Source: Pelatocladus maniniholoensis HA4357-MV3 | GTDB lineage: Bacteria; Cyanobacteriota; Cyanobacteriia; Cyanobacteriales; Nostocaceae | Direction of reading: 5' to 3' | DNA length: 54,313 bases | NCBI GenBank assembly: GCA_019359115.1 | Contig: JAHHHW010000098.1 | Coordinates: 1 to 54,313 of the forward strand | Part shown: piece by piece, positions 7,247 to 22,056 of the stretch | Position numbering within the stretch: the first letter of the stretch is position 1 | Layout of the letters: each line of letters begins with the position of its first letter | Program-made: the position numbers and the translations under genes | The notes under the pieces: generated by a model | The model's database searches: none | Told to the model about the DNA's origin: nothing | The model's input: the letters and a program-made list of their open reading frames with translations, nothing else

Positions 7247-7575
7247 CTGCGGTGTACACATAAATCCTCTGATCCCCCTAAATCCCCGCGCTGGCGCGCC
7301 GCTACGCTAGAAAAAAGGGGGACTTTGATTCTAGTTCCCCCTTTTTTAAGGGGGGTTAGGGGGGATCAAAACGCTACTAGGCAACTTTATAAGTAGCAGC
7401 ATCTGTACCGCCTCGGAATAAATTCCGAGTCTCATAGCGTAAGTCCTCTGAAGAGGACTCAAAAAAAAGTTTGTTCCAGTCCACTTGAGTGGACTTTCGC
7501 TATGAGCCTGGAACTTTAGTTCTAGGCGGGATACAGTTTCAACATGAAAAATTTTGACTTCTGTGTACACCGCAG
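7247..7575. repeat. Element A, copy interrupted by element B
   Basis: The ends CTGCGGTGTACACA and TGTGTACACCGCAG are intact. Two changes separate it from the 145-bp copy at 133-277: a short GCGCTGGCGCGCCGCTACGC replacement (about 7288-7307) and a 163-bp insertion of element B at 7394-7556. Deleting 7394-7556 restores TTTATAAGACTTCTGTG exactly as in the 133-277 copy. Confidence 0.85.
7394..7556. repeat. Element B (multi-hairpin) inserted in element A
   Basis: The core 7399-7537 folds as hairpin CTCGGAATAAATTCCGAG; outer stem CTCATAGCG...CGCTATGAG enclosing hairpins AGTCCTCTGAAGAGGACT and AGTCCACTTGAGTGGACT; then hairpin CTGGAACTTTAGTTCTAG. Other full copies are 2835-2972 (inverted) and 9673-9812; diverged relatives are 41413-41512, about 15146-15226 and about 13905-13965. 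No target duplication is visible at this insertion. Confidence 0.85.
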
Positions 7576-9882: not shown

Positions 9883-10027
9883 CTGCGGTGTACACAGAAG
9901 TCTTATAAAGTTGCCTAGTAGCGTTTTGATCCCCCCTAACCCCCCTTAAAAAAGGGGGAACTAGAATCAAAGTCCCCCTTAAAAAGGGGGATTTAGGGGG
10001 ATCAGAGGATTTATGTGTACACCGCAG
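9883..10027. repeat. Element A, inverted complete copy inside element E
   Basis: The 145-bp unit begins CTGCGGTGTACACAGAAG and ends TGTGTACACCGCAG, in the opposite orientation to 133-277. It lies in the central loop of an element E: TAAGCGCAAGC on the left and GCAAGCGGGGAGGGG on the right, whereas the uninterrupted copy at 46686-46818 reads TAAGCGCAAGCGGGGAGG. Confidence 0.85.
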
Positions 10028-16884: not shown

Positions 16885-17263
16885 TTTTCCTCACACTAAA
16901 TAAAAAAAGGCATAATGAAAATTACTAGCTCCCTAGCCTGAATAGTCACCAGCCTAAAGTGCTAACCACAAATCAAAGTATATTTTTGATAGATTACCAC
17001 CCTGCTTGTTGAAAGCAGCTTTATTAAAAAGTATTCTCAAATAATCTACCAGTTATTAGGAATTTTTTAATTCAAAGTCTAGAAATCATAACCAAATAGC
17101 ATAAGTAAACTTTGGAGCTATATATTACCCCTACACCCTTACACCCGCCTCAAAGAGCCTTGGTCAATTCTCAAACATTTCATGAGAATGATACTTATTT
17201 TAATCTATTAGGGGTAGAATAAGTCTCATTGTCAACTTCAAATCCTGGGGAGTTAGCAGGACT
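16885..17263. other. Divergent promoter region between the porin and znuA
   Basis: 379 bases of AT-rich DNA without repeats of the families seen elsewhere. It should hold both promoters. The only clear structured feature is the inverted pair at 17183-17234. TCCTGGGGAG at 17243-17252 may be the znuA ribosome-binding site. Confidence 0.6.
17183..17234. promoter_or_regulatory. Candidate Zur/Fur-type operator upstream of znuA
   Basis: TGAGAATGATACTTATT (17183-17199) and AATAAGTCTCATTGTCA (17218-17234) are inverted copies matching at 15 of 17 positions, separated by 18 bp. The TGANAATGANA core resembles the AT-rich palindromes bound by Fur-family regulators. It lies 30-81 bp before the znuA start, where a zinc-repressed operator would be expected. 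Assignment to Zur is inference from position and gene function. Confidence 0.55.
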
Positions 17264-18283
17264 GTGACGCACATTCCTAGAGAAAGTAAAAAAAATAAAC
17301 CCAAAGATATTATTGTATCTTTATTTACTTTGTTAGTTTTAATTACTGGAACTGGTTGTAATCAAACAGATACAACAGCCTCAGTCAATACAGAACAATC
17401 ACCCCAAGCGCAGGAAACGGCATCCACACCTGCACAAAAATCAGGAAGAATTAAAGTAGTTGCAACGTTTTTACCGATGTATTGGTTTACGAAAGCGGTA
17501 GTAGGAGATACAGCAGATGTGACAATCTTAGTGCCTCCAGGAACAGAAGTGCATGAGTATCAAGCAACACCGGAAAATGTGAAAGCGATCGCCACAGCCA
17601 ATGTATTAGTCAAAAATGGCTTGGGTTTAGAAGAATTTTTAGAAGCAACAGTTAAAAATGCTCAAAATTCAAAGTTAACACAAATAGATGCTAGTAAAGG
17701 CATTCAAGCTGTAGAAAGAATATCACCCGTTGTAGAAACAGGAAATCAAAATGAAGAACACGATCATGAACATGCTGGAGGGAATCCACACATATGGTTA
17801 GATCCTGTTTTGGCAAAACAAGAAGTTATTAATATTCGAGATGGCTTGATTGCAGCTTATCCTGCTAATAAAAATACATATGAAACAAATGCAGCAACTT
17901 ATATCAAACAATTAGAATCTTTAAATAATCAATATCAGCAGACTTTACAGAAAAATCCTAACTGCACATTTGTCACCTTCCATGACGCCTATCCATATTT
18001 AGCTAAACGTTACAACCTTAAACAAGTTGCAGTAGTTGAAATTCCTGAAGATCAACTGACACCAACAGATGTACAAAAAGCAGTCAATGCAGTGAAACAG
18101 TATAAAGTCAAAGCTCTATTTGGTGAACCAGGAATAGATAACAAATTATTGACAAGTCTTTCTAAAGACCTGAATTTAACTTTACGTGAATTAGATTCAT
18201 TGGAAACAGGTTCAACAGATCCGCAACATTATTTTCAGGCAATGCAAAATAATTTGCAAACTTTAGAAACAGCATGTAAGTAA
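17264..18283 (+). CDS. znuA: Zinc ABC transporter substrate-binding lipoprotein
   Basis: Binds Zn(II) outside the plasma membrane and delivers it to ZnuBC. 339 residues. The N-terminus has a lipoprotein signal with lipobox LITGTGC (Cys at about 32). The cluster A-I fold shows metal-ligand segments PPGTEVHEYQATPEN, GGNPHIWLDPVLAKQ, TFVTFHDAYPYLAKRY and GEPGIDNKLL. Between the first two is the His/acid-rich loop EEHDHEHAGGNPH, a ZnuA trademark. The start is GTG 17264, 11 nt after GGGGAG. ZnuC follows only after 848 bp filled by a 21-bp tandem array and nested insertions, so the operon is physically split. Confidence 0.93.
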   Translation: MTHIPRESKKNKPKDIIVSLFTLLVLITGTGCNQTDTTASVNTEQSPQAQETASTPAQKSGRIKVVATFLPMYWFTKAVVGDTADVTILVPPGTEVHEYQATPENVKAIATANVLVKNGLGLEEFLEATVKNAQNSKLTQIDASKGIQAVERISPVVETGNQNEEHDHEHAGGNPHIWLDPVLAKQEVINIRDGLIAAYPANKNTYETNAATYIKQLESLNNQYQQTLQKNPNCTFVTFHDAYPYLAKRYNLKQVAVVEIPEDQLTPTDVQKAVNAVKQYKVKALFGEPGIDNKLLTSLSKDLNLTLRELDSLETGSTDPQHYFQAMQNNLQTLETACK

Positions 18284-18322
18284 TCAGTTAACAGTTATCA
18301 GAATTAATTCTGAGGTGAACTC

Positions 18323-18553
18323 TTTTGCAATTCGCAAACTAAACTTTTGCAACTCACAAACTAGCTTTTGCAACTCGTAAACTAGCTTTTGCAACTCGTA
18401 AACTAGCTTTTGCGACTCGTAAACTAGCTTTTGCAACTCGCAAACTAAACTTTTGCGACTCGTAAACTAGCTTTTGCAACTCGTAAACTAGCTTTTGCAA
18501 CTCGTAAACTAGCTTTTGCGACTCGTAAACTAGCTTTTGCGACTCGTAAACTA
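18323..18553. repeat. 21-bp tandem array 1 (11 units)
   Basis: Eleven head-to-tail units of TTTTGCAACTCGTAAACTAGC type. Two units have 22 bp (ending AAAC instead of AGC) and the last is shorter. Variation is confined to A/G at position 7 and a few changes in the CGTAAACTAGC part. There are no spacers, so it is not CRISPR. It begins 39 bp after the znuA stop. Confidence 0.9.
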
Positions 18554-18647
18554 ATCCTTTTTTTGTGATTTTCGGCAGAGAATTTATCTGAAACCTTCAG
18601 GACTTACGCAACTGGCATATTATTTTAAGTTCGTAGTGAGGACTTTA

Positions 18648-18761
18648 TACCAATTCTCTGTAAAGCTGCACATTATTTTAACCCTTCCCAACCTCCCCTT
18701 ACCAAGGGGAGGTGCCGAAGGTGGTGGGGTTCTTTCTATGCATCTTCATATGAAAATGGTA
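18648..18761. repeat. Element F, intact copy (114 bp)
   Basis: Begins TACCAATTCTCTGTAAAGC and ends GAAAATGGTA; the terminal inverted repeat is short (TACCA/TGGTA with further imperfect pairing). The interior CTCCCCTTACCAAGGGGAG is a hairpin. It is flanked by TTA (18645-18647 and 18762-18764). Removing it restores GGACTTTAGTCC in the host palindrome. Confidence 0.85.
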
Positions 18762-18792
18762 TTAGTCCTCAAAATAAGGACTAAAGTCCTCA

Positions 18793-19062
18793 TACCAATT
18801 CTCTGTAAAGCTGCACATTATTTTAACCCTTCCCAACCTCCCCTTACCAAGGGCTGCGGTGTACACAGAAGTCTTACAAAGTTGCCTAGTAGCGTTTTGA
18901 TCCCCCCTAACCCCCCTTAAAAAAGGGGGAACTAGAATCAAAGTCCCCCTTAAAAAGGGGGATTTAGGGGGATCAGAGGATTTATGTGTACACCTCCCCT
19001 TACCAAGGGGAGGTGCCGAAGGCGGTGGGGTTCTTTCTATGCATCTTCATATGGAAATGGTA
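18793..19062. repeat. Element F, second copy interrupted by element A
   Basis: Same ends as 18648-18761, flanked by TCA (18790-18792 and 19063-19065). Element A (about 18854-18994, inverted, lacking the last bases of CCGCAG) sits in the central hairpin. CTCCCCTTACCAAGGG is present on both sides of A but only once in the intact copy. Confidence 0.85.
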
Positions 19063-19131
19063 TCACTACAAGCAAAATTTTGAAATTTTTGTGACACTTG
19101 CGTAAGTCCTGTTACCAATTACCAATTACCA

Positions 19132-19908
19132 ATGAATATTGAAAGTCCGATTTTAAAAGTTGAAAAATTAAGTGTCAAGAAGGGTAATTATCTAGCTATT
19201 CTTGATGTTTCTTTTGAATTGTTGCCAGGGACAAATACTGCTATAGTTGGTCCCAATGGTGCGGGTAAAAGTACTTTAGTACAAGCAGTTTTAGATCTAA
19301 TTCCACGCACTACTGGCAATATAGAAATATTTGGTCGTCCAGTAACTAGATTAGGACATTTATGTCATCAGTTGGGGTATGTGCCACAGCATTTTATTTT
19401 TGACCGTAGTTTTCCGATTTCTGTAAGTGAGTTGGTAGGTTTGGGATGGGTAAAACAAGGAAAAAAGGAAAAGGTATTTTCTCAAAACTTATGGCAGCAA
19501 AATCAAGAAAAAGCAACAGCAGTAACCTCTGCTTTACGACGAACTGATGCTTATCATCTGCGAAATCAAGCAATTGGTACTTTGAGTGGTGGTCAGTTAA
19601 AGCGAGTATTGCTTGCTTATTGCTTGGTTATGCCTAGAAGATTATTAATACTAGATGAAGCTTTTGCTGGGGTAGATGTGCGAGGTGCAGCAGATTTTTA
19701 CACTCTGCTAAATGATCTCAAGCAAGAAGAGGGTTGGACAGTCTTACAAGTTTCCCACGATATTGATATGGTCAACCGTTATTGCGATCGCGTGATTTGT
19801 CTCAACCAAACCATCGTTTGCACCGGACTACCAGAAGTTGCGCTTTCACCAAACAATCTTTTAGCAACCTACGGTCCAGGATTTAGCCGTTATCAACATA
19901 ATCATTAG
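19132..19908 (+). CDS. znuC: Zinc ABC transporter ATP-binding protein
   Basis: The ATPase that drives ZnuB. 258 residues. Walker A GPNGAGKST (about 40-48), Q-loop LGYVPQHFIFDRSFPI, signature LSGGQLKRVLLAYCL, Walker B RRLLILDEAFAGVD and switch His in LQVSHDID are all present and in order. The Mn/Zn-type family is indicated by PQ-FDRSFP and by the flanking znuA and znuB. An insert around residue 105-125 (KQGKKEKVFSQNLWQQNQEK) lengthens the helical domain slightly. It starts at ATG 19132 after AATTACCAATTACCA with no strong ribosome-binding site. The downstream neighbour is the opposing zinc sensor gene. Confidence 0.93.
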   Translation: MNIESPILKVEKLSVKKGNYLAILDVSFELLPGTNTAIVGPNGAGKSTLVQAVLDLIPRTTGNIEIFGRPVTRLGHLCHQLGYVPQHFIFDRSFPISVSELVGLGWVKQGKKEKVFSQNLWQQNQEKATAVTSALRRTDAYHLRNQAIGTLSGGQLKRVLLAYCLVMPRRLLILDEAFAGVDVRGAADFYTLLNDLKQEEGWTVLQVSHDIDMVNRYCDRVICLNQTIVCTGLPEVALSPNNLLATYGPGFSRYQHNH

Positions 19909-20004
19909 ATCGGGGAACGGGGATTGAGGATTGGGGAATAGGGAATAGATAACTGTACAGACGCGTAGACGCTCGTAAGAGTATAATCATGTCTCTAATT
20001 GGTA

Positions 20005-20325
20005 TTACTCATCTAAATGTTCGGCAACGGCTTGATAAATATGCAAAACATGGTGATCATGGAGGCTATAAAATACACGACGACCTTGCTTACGATAATT
20101 CACTAAGCGCATTACTCGTAAATTTCGCAACTGATGGGATACAGCAGATTCTGTCATCTCCAGCGTCGCTGCTAAATCACTCACACAAAGTTCTTTTTCT
20201 GCTAAAAGAGATAGAATTCTTAGACGATTAGCATCCCCTAAAAAACTAAAAAATTCTGCCATTCGTTGAGCTTTTTGGCTGCTGAGAACCTGAATTGAAA
20301 GGGGTTGCAAATCTTTTGTAAACAT
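20005..20325 (-). CDS. ArsR/SmtB-family zinc-sensing transcriptional repressor
   Basis: A 106-residue winged-helix metalloregulator, expected to leave DNA when it binds Zn(II). The recognition helix is MTESAVSHQLRNLRVM and the wing is VNYRKQGRRVFYSL. The C-terminal helix DHHVLHIYQAVAEHLDE carries Asp, His+2, His+13 and Glu+16, exactly the alpha-5 zinc site of SmtB/ZiaR. The alpha-3 segment has a single Cys (KELCVSDLA). It lies between znuC and znuB on the opposite strand, 85 bp from the znuB start, an unusual place because this family normally represses zinc export or storage rather than uptake. Its targets are unknown; autoregulation and a role at znuB are the obvious candidates. Confidence 0.9.
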   Translation of the reverse strand: MFTKDLQPLSIQVLSSQKAQRMAEFFSFLGDANRLRILSLLAEKELCVSDLAATLEMTESAVSHQLRNLRVMRLVNYRKQGRRVFYSLHDHHVLHIYQAVAEHLDE

Positions 20326-20377
20326 TTTGCTTTATCTGGCAATTTAATTAGTGAACAGAAACTAAACTTATATACTT

Positions 20378-20397
20378 CACAGACTTATGATTCTGTG
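20378..20397. promoter_or_regulatory. Candidate operator between the SmtB-like gene and znuB
   Basis: CACAGA (20378-20383) and TCTGTG (20392-20397) form a perfect 6-bp dyad with an 8-bp spacer, inside the 85-bp divergent region. A TGAACA half-site-like motif, as in smt operators, lies at 20352-20357. Assignment is by position only. Confidence 0.35.
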
Positions 20398-20410
20398 TAA
20401 ATAATATTGC

Positions 20411-21289
20411 ATGAATTGCTTTAATGATTATCATTTTTATTGGTTAGCCGTCACCACAATTAGTGACTTGTTAACTTTGCTACAGTTTCCCTTTATGCAA
20501 CGAGCGATCGCTGGTGCTGTATTAATGGGAATACTTGGTGGTTTGCTTGGCTGTTTTGTCACCTTGCGCCAGTTGTCTTTTTTTAGTCATGCTGTCGGTC
20601 ATGCGGCATTAGTCGGCGTAGCATTAGGTGTATTGCTACAGTTAAATCCTACTTGGATGCTGCTACCTTTCACATTAGTGTTTGGGGTGGTCGTGATTTA
20701 CTTTATCGACAAAACTGATTTAGCTAGCGATAGCGTACTTAGTATAGTATTATCAGGAGCCTTAGCGATCGGCATAATTTTAAGTAGTCTCATCCAAGGA
20801 TATCGCGGTAACTTGATGGGAGTTTTGTTTGGCGATATTCTGGCGATCAATCTCACAGACCTGATTTTAACCATGCTGGTGCTTGTGGGAGGGAGCATAT
20901 TTCTATTATCAACCCTACGCCAGCAAATTTTGTTAACCCTTAATCTTGGTGTGGCAAAAGTCCAAGGAATTCCGGTACAAATTTATCGATATGGATTTGT
21001 AGTTTTACTTTCATTAGCTGTTGCTGTAGCAATTAAGGCTGTCGGCGTTTTACTGGTGAATGCATTTCTGGTAATTCCCGCCTCCACAGCCAAATTGATG
21101 AGTCATCACTTTAGCCGCTTTCTGCTCCTGTCGGTGATTGTTGGTTCTACTACGAGTATCGCTGGCATAATTGCATCAGGTCTTTTTAACCTTGCTTCTG
21201 GCCCAAGCATTGTACTGCTACAATTTATCGTGTTTGTAGCTGTATTCGGCTGGATCAAGTTGATGAGCAAAGGGGCTTGGAACGGGTGA
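20411..21289 (+). CDS. znuB: Zinc ABC transporter permease
   Basis: Integral-membrane channel subunit of the ZnuABC importer. 292 residues with eight or nine hydrophobic segments. Characteristic stretches are MQRAIAGAVLMGILGGLLGC, FVTLRQLSFFSHAVGHAALV (the coupling region of this permease family), LLTLNLGVAKVQGIPV, and AVGVLLVNAFLVIPASTAKL. The first about 25 residues (MNCFNDYHFYWLAV...) precede the usual family start; an internal Met at about residue 29 (MQRAIAG) is an alternative start. It is separated from znuC by the divergent regulator and so probably has its own promoter. Confidence 0.93.
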   Translation: MNCFNDYHFYWLAVTTISDLLTLLQFPFMQRAIAGAVLMGILGGLLGCFVTLRQLSFFSHAVGHAALVGVALGVLLQLNPTWMLLPFTLVFGVVVIYFIDKTDLASDSVLSIVLSGALAIGIILSSLIQGYRGNLMGVLFGDILAINLTDLILTMLVLVGGSIFLLSTLRQQILLTLNLGVAKVQGIPVQIYRYGFVVLLSLAVAVAIKAVGVLLVNAFLVIPASTAKLMSHHFSRFLLLSVIVGSTTSIAGIIASGLFNLASGPSIVLLQFIVFVAVFGWIKLMSKGAWNG

Positions 21290-21444
21290 ACTTTGGGAGA
21301 CCGCTACCTTCCCCAATCCCCATTTCCTTATACTGCTTTAATAAATTTTCTGTAAATTTTGCGTAAATCCACTTAGAATCTATTCCGAAATTCTACGATT
21401 TCAGATAAAAGTTGGGTATACAACCATCGTTAAAAACCAACTCA

Positions 21445-22056
21445 ATGAAACGAAGTTTGCCAAAAAGGCGCTATGCGTCTGCACAACTTGTACAAATTGC
21501 CATCATTGTTTTCATCTTTCTTGGCAGTATTGGTATTGTTGGGGTAGGTTTCGTTTTCAGACAAGCTTTTAACAACAACAATCAAGTTAAAACCATACAA
21601 GATGCCTCACGTTACCAAGAAATACGGCAGAAACTTTGGTTAAATCAAAACCAAGTCAGACATTTTCCTTATAAAATTCCGGCTAATGCTTTGAATGTTC
21701 GTCTTGCTTACTCTCGTGGTTTTTTACAAGGAAACAATAATAATTTTTTTCAACTTCGATTAAAACTTCCACAAGAACAGATAAACAATTTACATAATCA
21801 ATACGAAGCTATAGCTAAACACAAATACATTGGTGGTAATACTAACATCCATGCCAATCTACCTAATGGTGTTCCTACTACTTTTTTTTATACTAGTAAC
21901 TCTAAAGAAGATTCCTTTCCTAACTCCTATGAAATATTAGTATTGGGTGCAAACGATAGAAGTAGTTCTGATTTTAAGTGGAATCATGGTGATAGTTACG
22001 GTGTCGCCATTAATGTATCGGCTTCAGAGATCATCTACTGGGCTGAAGAATGGTAG
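21445..22056 (+). CDS. Membrane-anchored protein of unknown function
   Basis: 203 residues from ATG 21445; an earlier TTG at 21412 in frame is less likely. One N-terminal transmembrane segment (about 13-35, VQIAIIVFIFLGSIGIVGVG) leads to an extracytoplasmic domain of about 165 residues with an Asn-rich patch (NNNNFF), LRLKLPQEQINNLHNQYEAI and YGVAINVSASEIIYWAEEW at the C-terminus. No family is recognised. It follows znuB by 155 bp on the same strand but need not be linked to zinc. Confidence 0.65.
   Translation: MKRSLPKRRYASAQLVQIAIIVFIFLGSIGIVGVGFVFRQAFNNNNQVKTIQDASRYQEIRQKLWLNQNQVRHFPYKIPANALNVRLAYSRGFLQGNNNNFFQLRLKLPQEQINNLHNQYEAIAKHKYIGGNTNIHANLPNGVPTTFFYTSNSKEDSFPNSYEILVLGANDRSSSDFKWNHGDSYGVAINVSASEIIYWAEEW

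Follow-up and report, generated by a model that had tools for sequence, protein, structure and literature searches.

Nested non-autonomous mobile elements between znuA and znuC of the cyanobacterium Pelatocladus maniniholoensis

Insertion sequences (IS) of the IS630/Tc1/mariner family, such as ISY100, are described as inserting into the dinucleotide TA, which is duplicated in the process (PMC2170065). Among small cyanobacterial elements, the MITE Nezha has been ascribed to ISNpu3-like elements (as cited in PMC3049150, PMC10969869 and PMC3733652). GTAG REPs, in the accessible text of PMC3733652, consist of a GTAG tag and an 8-bp palindrome and form head-to-head dimers with GTAG on the outside; the same text describes REP dimers within longer palindromes in Anabaena variabilis, as well as tyrosine transposase genes that are not flanked by REPs. 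IS elements that target REPs, including ISRm22 of the IS4 family, have been reported in other bacteria (Tobes and Pareja 2006, PMC1525189), and in pneumococcus BOX, RUP and SPRITE repeats have been found inserted in each other (PMC3049150).

The locus described here lies in contig 98 of the 6.70-Mb draft genome of Pelatocladus maniniholoensis HA4357-MV3 (167 contigs), and we refer to the whole 54,313-nucleotide stretch analysed as the window. Its left neighbour is a zinc-binding protein gene (ORF 17264..18283, plus strand; translated matches 59.8-91% identical at 32 cyanobacterial loci), which the initial annotation named znuA and which we likewise take to be znuA. The right neighbour is the ABC transporter ATPase gene znuC (ORF 19132..19908, plus strand), 92-95% identical in Fischerella/Westiellopsis; within the collection searched, its closest named relatives, at this identity, are from Fischerella muscicola, Westiellopsis prolifica and Fischerella sp. 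PCC 9431. The gap between the two co-directional genes contains a 514-bp block (18598-19111), for which the initial annotation had the coordinates and letters right. We regard it as highly probable that three kinds of non-autonomous elements, called O, F and A in this study, make up this block, nested by serial insertion in that order with the transposase partners proposed below. The nest is made of known kinds of elements and is well resolved, with two variant rules, namely a TNA stagger and a loop-spanning insertion. A literature search that covered few subscription papers gave no title on this nest, which is weak evidence that it is undescribed.

The outermost element, O, is delimited by a left arm with terminal repeat CAGGACTTACGCAA (18598..18632) and a right arm with terminal repeat TTGCGTAAGTCCTG (19070..19111), both on the plus strand. 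Two GTAG REPs, as defined in PMC3733652, lie between the arms. The first is split into a 5' part (18633..18647) and a 3' part (18765..18771), both on the plus strand, with F copy 1 in its loop, while the second, inverted REP (18777..18792, minus strand) is cut near its base by F copy 2 and is completed by CTAC at 19066-19069. F copy 1 (18648..18761, plus strand) is a 114-bp mini-transposon, TACCAATT...TGGTA, flanked by the target duplication TTA at 18645..18647 and 18762-18764. F copy 2 extends over 270 bp (18793-19062) and is flanked by TCA at 18790..18792 and 19063-19065; its left part (18793..18853) and right part (18999..19062), both on the plus strand, are separated by element A (18854..18998, plus strand), which comprises 145 bp, CTGCGGTGTACAC...GTGTACACC followed by a 4-base patch. 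The 11-bp target duplication of A, CTTACCAAGGG, lies across the loop of the F hairpin, with one copy at 18843..18853 and the second at 18999-19009, that is, the first 11 bases of the right part of F copy 2. After removal of a 156-bp block from F copy 2, the two F copies differ at 2 of 114 positions. An outer pair around a palindrome cut by two F copies, the second of which is cut by A, is what the initial annotation had described.

Also as it had described, deletion of F copy 1 with one TTA and of F copy 2 with one TCA brings GTAGTGAGGACTTTAGTCCT to face its exact complement, and the inner arms become perfect 20-bp complements. The F-free product is a 124-bp unit with a predicted fold of -65.1 kcal/mol (RNA parameters), and it is identical at 124/124 positions to an uninterrupted copy in the same genome (G000:C24:7667-7790) that has TCATC on either side. 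Because this uninterrupted copy exists, the restored palindrome is not a product of chance.

The nest had been described as four-level. Three tiers are visible (O, the two F copies, and A inside F copy 2) and not four, because the palindrome travels within the outer element: it is found inside O in full-length copies of the genome itself and of the sister genomes G002 and G003, with outer repeat and palindrome forming a single element. A second copy of O in the same genome (contig C70) lacks one base and has 99% identity; near-complete copies at 91-98% identity number seven in G003 and one in G002, and two stretches fetched from G001, in which the left arm is joined to the REP dimer, match over 82-87 bases only. 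Three copies (L203, L209 and L189) are 103 bp long, with a REP dimer shorter by 21 bases, approximately one REP unit. Like MITEs, O is short, has terminal inverted repeats, occurs in multiple copies and is flanked by target duplications. Across 16 two-ended rows from the genome and its sisters, the exact flanking repeat is 5 bp in 10, 6 bp in 2 and 0-3 bp in 4, that is, 5-6 bp in 12/16. The O copy in the nest is without a matching 5-bp flank: ACCTT (18593-18597) faces TTACC (19112-19116), with only TT in agreement, which may reflect either mutation or rearrangement. Slippage may have occurred in the right flank, where TTACCAA is repeated in tandem.

The palindrome of O consists of GTAG-TGAGGACT-TT-AGTCCTCA present twice in inverted orientation, with the GTAG ends outside, which is the pairing of GTAG REPs and REPINs. 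The pattern has 167 hits at up to 2 mismatches, compared to 16 with the reversed control. O thus resembles the dimers of PMC3733652 in its GTAG tag, its paired REPs and the placement of the dimer inside a longer palindrome, and it differs from the dimers in the accessible text of that paper in the host palindrome (terminal inverted repeat CAGGACTTACGCAA), in being mobile as a whole, with duplications of 5 bp, and in receiving F. A GTAG-REP/RAYT pair was considered as the outer layer and dropped, this REP being absent within about 1500 bases of all 3 Y1_Tnp matches in the genome; the absence is weak evidence, since REP-less tyrosine transposase genes are described (PMC3733652).

The identical unoccupied O in the same genome, the flanking duplications and the empty sites in relatives give the order of events as O, then F, then A, in agreement with the initial annotation. 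Empty sites had been proposed as a check: all 32 znuA-znuC intervals examined from named cyanobacterial relatives are without the end motifs of O, F and A. The gap measures 33-480 bp in these relatives versus 848 bp here; the same-genus genomes G001-G003, which are not additional to the 32, have the same short gap. The znuC search gave 36 loci, of which the interval check covered all but 4 distant loci (L156-L159). One interval of the 32 (L144) contains REP-like motifs.

These data also bear on the idea that the composite is one old unit, spread or inherited whole, or else a by-product of recombination between repeats. The draft genome is rich in repeats, the two F copies are close to identical, as given above, and the 4-base patch suggests some exchange between local repeats. 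Against this stand the intact, F-less O with 100% identity in the same genome, the flanks that match over 3 bp for each F copy and over 11 bp for A, and the absence of the composite at this site from every relative checked, none of which carries it as a conserved unit. Most of this explanation is already refuted, and we consider what is left of it extremely improbable.

A different possibility is that the block has been retained for a role in the znu transcript, as a terminator, a processing site or an RNA switch. It places strong hairpins between two co-directional genes, and it contains 4 terminator-like patterns where 1.0 is expected in shuffles; three of these four are on the minus strand, the block is missing from the intervals of all 32 relatives, and no Rfam family matches positions 17000-21500 at gathering score. 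We therefore hold such a role to be very unlikely. For serial insertion no host function of the block is needed, and nothing found points to one. More generally, where intergenic regions of cyanobacteria hold RNA-like, hairpin-rich structures, these may be stacks of transposon remnants, which calls for caution in their annotation.

Under serial insertion, the 124-bp mini-transposon O, its two GTAG REPs arranged head to head, would have entered the znuA-znuC gap first. Two F elements would then have entered its REP hairpins, one in the loop and one at the base of the stem, each with duplication of 3 bp (TTA and TCA), and the 145-bp A would have entered the loop of the GC-rich hairpin of F copy 2 with duplication of 11 bp. 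The patch at the right tip of A would be a later overwriting.

The duplication of 3 bp of type TNA, proposed in the initial annotation from the two copies in the nest, holds for most of the F copies found in the genome. F and A were tabulated from fetched loci of the genome itself and not from the whole genome; a first F survey scored 40 of 66 candidates. The 39 two-ended F rows are distinct, one copy read on both strands being counted once, and two of them (L053, 36 bp; L211, with a different interior) are doubtful. Identical 3-bp flanks are present in 35/39, so that copies without matching flanks, on which the proposal could have foundered, are not the rule. All 35 are TNA: TTA or TAA, plus one TCA and one TGA. 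Of the remaining four rows, two (L010 and L024) depart from the rule of equal flanks with TAA facing TTA, and the ends of the other two are shifted or decayed. F is short, with terminal inverted repeats, multiple copies and target duplications, as are MITEs. The duplication can be read exactly, as 3 bp and not TA, because the locus gives an unambiguous pair of occupied and empty sites: the unoccupied 124-bp O leaves no room for a hidden TA reading, and the TGA and TCA flanks exclude a TA duplication. The target consensus is C-TNA-G, with C before in 21/35 and G after in 18/35, compared to 19% and 17% at background TNA sites. The loop of the F hairpin reads TTACCAA in 24 of the 39 copies, the flipped TTGGTAA in 7 and another sequence in 8, and this variation occurs in more than one F subtype; similar flips occur in some A flanks (for example L234), and these look like inversions of hairpin loops.

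A further suggestion had been to look for an IS with the ends of F and a TNA duplication. Such elements exist: IS630-type elements have the same outermost bases as F, and all 13 two-ended copies have TNA flanks. When 25 genomes were scanned for ends like those of F, pairs 1129 bp apart appeared in G006, where four IS copies have TNA/TNA flanks and the same C-terminal product. One translated G006 copy has two overlapping frames. Its C-terminal frame matches NF033545 (127.8 bits, cut-off 100) and PF13358 (DDE_3), and its N-terminal frame scores 69.1 bits against NF033545, under the cut-off. In the own-genome copy, flanked by TCA/TCA, the C-terminal frame matches NF033545 at 113.9 bits and also PF13358. 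A protein search with the transposase found matches in 21/30 genomes. Among 30 fetched IS630-type loci, the two TACCA(A/T)TT ends lie 800-1600 bp apart in 11, one of them the own-genome copy, and the TNA flanks are equal in each of these 11; the other 19 have no TACCA end pair in the stretch examined. Together with two further G006 copies, the 11 loci make up the 13. The two G011 copies have only the outermost bases in common with F.

These partners encode an IS630-type DDE transposase, and like ISY100 and the MITEs derived from its family (PMC2170065) the system combines this transposase with short terminal inverted repeats and small non-coding derivatives. It differs from the family as described in the accessible text of that paper in the duplication, which is 3-bp TNA here, read from the occupied and empty pair, and TA there. 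The flanks are TNA/TNA with equal middle base in 13/13 IS copies and 35/39 F copies; because the defining TA feature was looked for and the flanks were TNA instead, we call the partners IS630-type by their protein and not ordinary members of the family. Judged by title and the start of the abstract, no on-topic paper pairing IS630 with TNA was found.

Most likely, F is mobilised in trans by a cyanobacterial subgroup of IS630-type transposases, with a 3-bp stagger at C-TNA-G in place of 2 bp at TA. The IS5/IS1031 group, which duplicates TNA, was considered as the mover of F and rejected because the partner transposase is IS630-type. Inspection by eye of inverted repeats and motif hits at 15 PF01609 match loci of the own genome found no IS with the ends of F, A or O. 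F is similar to Nezha, as the latter is described in the accessible text of the papers citing it, in being small, cyanobacterial and probably mobilised in trans. A 3-bp duplication associated with IS630-type partners is relevant to the question of how the stagger of strand transfer can shift within the Tc1/mariner fold.

Element A is abundant: its end CTGCGGTGTACAC (at most 1 mismatch) occurs 122 times in the genome, compared to 1 occurrence of the reversed control; part of these 122 ends were listed individually. The table of 37 two-ended A rows includes two overlapping readings at L082 and excludes the copy in F copy 2, whose right tip is altered. The commonest length is 145 bp (13/37). An exact flanking repeat of 9-11 bp is present in 17 rows and the other 20 have no exact duplication of at least 9 bp, several of them being, by eye, the same hairpins with an altered loop. 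A is thus, in the manner of MITEs, a short element with terminal inverted repeats and multiple copies, with target duplications of 9-11 bp in 17/37. Three more A-type elements lie in the window, at 133-277 (145 bp), 7247-7575 (329 bp) and 9883-10027 (145 bp), and the last two adjoin GC-rich hairpin sequence.

At the right tip of the A in F copy 2 (18995..18998), the terminal GCAG is replaced by TCCC, as in the left half of F (three substitutions; F copy 2 compared to the A-in-F copies of contigs C2 and C150). The C150 copy shares the 11-bp duplication CTTACCAAGGG, and at the right junction the two copies differ only in the last four bases of A. A duplication of 18 bp was considered for this insertion and rejected in favour of 11 bp and a 4-base patch, because this makes the block exactly 145 bp long and confines the difference from the C150 junction to those four bases. 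We infer that the patch is a short conversion or a template switch.

The exact end of A gave, by eye, only short pairs or single hits in 16 genomes. A CTRC variant of this end, searched in 3 sister genomes, led to a 1412-bp candidate IS with CTACGGTGTACAC ends and CCCAAAATTGGG on either flank, which sits in a palindrome and has the end CTRCGGTGTACAC in common with A. The middle of its gene is masked; the visible N-terminus matches PF13808 (DDE_Tnp_1_assoc) over residues 7-64 with 45.7 bits (cut-off 32.3), a domain that we take to be a marker of ISAs1, and the visible 68 aa have no NCBIfam match. The most likely mover of A is this 1.4-kb ISAs1-like IS, classed from its visible N-terminus by the ISAs1-type associated domain, which would insert across hairpin loops.

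The initial annotation had suggested that these elements prefer to land in each other's hairpins. The suggestion is strongly supported for A, whose landing sites are GC-rich hairpins; for F the general excess is slight, apart from a small excess in REPs. When one duplication is removed, a perfect stem of at least 9 bp is present in 13/17 A targets, compared to 1.6% of 43,891 non-ORF positions (binomial p = 7e-21, a value that does not come from independent draws because the targets are related repeats). The background includes A, F and O copies and is thus conservative. By eye, the 17 exact duplications hold the hairpin centre and part of one or both arms. Fifteen atypical F places were also fetched: 7 contain element A, element B or a remnant of A, and the other 8 are deletions, truncations or variant centres. 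Together with F copy 2, all 8 insertions or remnants lie at F positions 38-67 (by eye; post-hoc p = 2e-5). Element B (CTTTCAAGGGTAGGGG...CCCCTACCCTTGAAAG) was seen inside F near positions 38-49 three times (L063, L064 and L065), in both orientations, with 11-bp duplications, one of them offset by a single base (by eye).

For F, stems of at least 6 bp occur in 9/35 targets versus 12% of the background (p = 0.02) and stems of at least 8 bp in 3/35 versus 3.2% (p = 0.10, not significant). Five of the 35 targets, classed by eye, are in GTAG REPs, with 0.15 expected (31 of 7,310 non-ORF TNA sites; p = 4e-7), two of these five being the pair in the single O copy of the nest. Part of this excess may stem from the C-TNA-G consensus and from the neutrality of intergenic space.

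It is a serious possibility, to which we give somewhat less than even chances, that neither A nor F seeks hairpins, and that insertions survive on neutral repeats or follow a short recognised sequence that the repeats carry. The preference of F for C-TNA-G and its slight hairpin excess are in keeping with this, as are the common C-rich and G-rich arms of the A targets and the 4/17 whose perfect stems are just 3-5 bp. The stems of at least 9 bp in 13/17 A targets argue against it, with loop sequences that vary, although the targets are related and the draws not independent. As a tentative alternative, which we think rather unlikely as a whole, the DDE transposase of A and its IS would pick an extruded hairpin or cruciform by shape and cut the arms so that the duplication holds the loop, while the IS630-type relatives serving F would have gone from a 2-bp TA to a 3-bp TNA stagger. 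If so, the shape rule for A and the TNA stagger for F would make small cyanobacterial elements preferred landing sites for one another. A provides a natural setting in which to ask if DNA can be selected by a DDE transposase through its secondary structure and not its sequence.

As in the REP-targeting IS of PMC1525189, mobile elements here favour palindromic repeats. The accessible text of that paper concerns full IS elements in the REPs of other bacteria, whereas here non-autonomous elements enter the hairpins of non-autonomous elements, with loop-spanning duplications of 9-11 bp. Compared to the BOX, RUP and SPRITE insertions, the nest offers a base-exact unoccupied copy and a hairpin-loop rule, neither of which was found in the accessible text of PMC3049150.

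Between znuA and O, the window contains 11 tandem copies of a 21-bp unit, CTTTTGCAACTCGTAAACTAG (18322-18553), which has no match in the znuA-znuC intervals of the 32 relatives. Similar stretches occur in the sister genomes and in contigs C68, C119 and C100 of the same genome; the one in C68 starts about 185 bases past a Y1_Tnp domain match.
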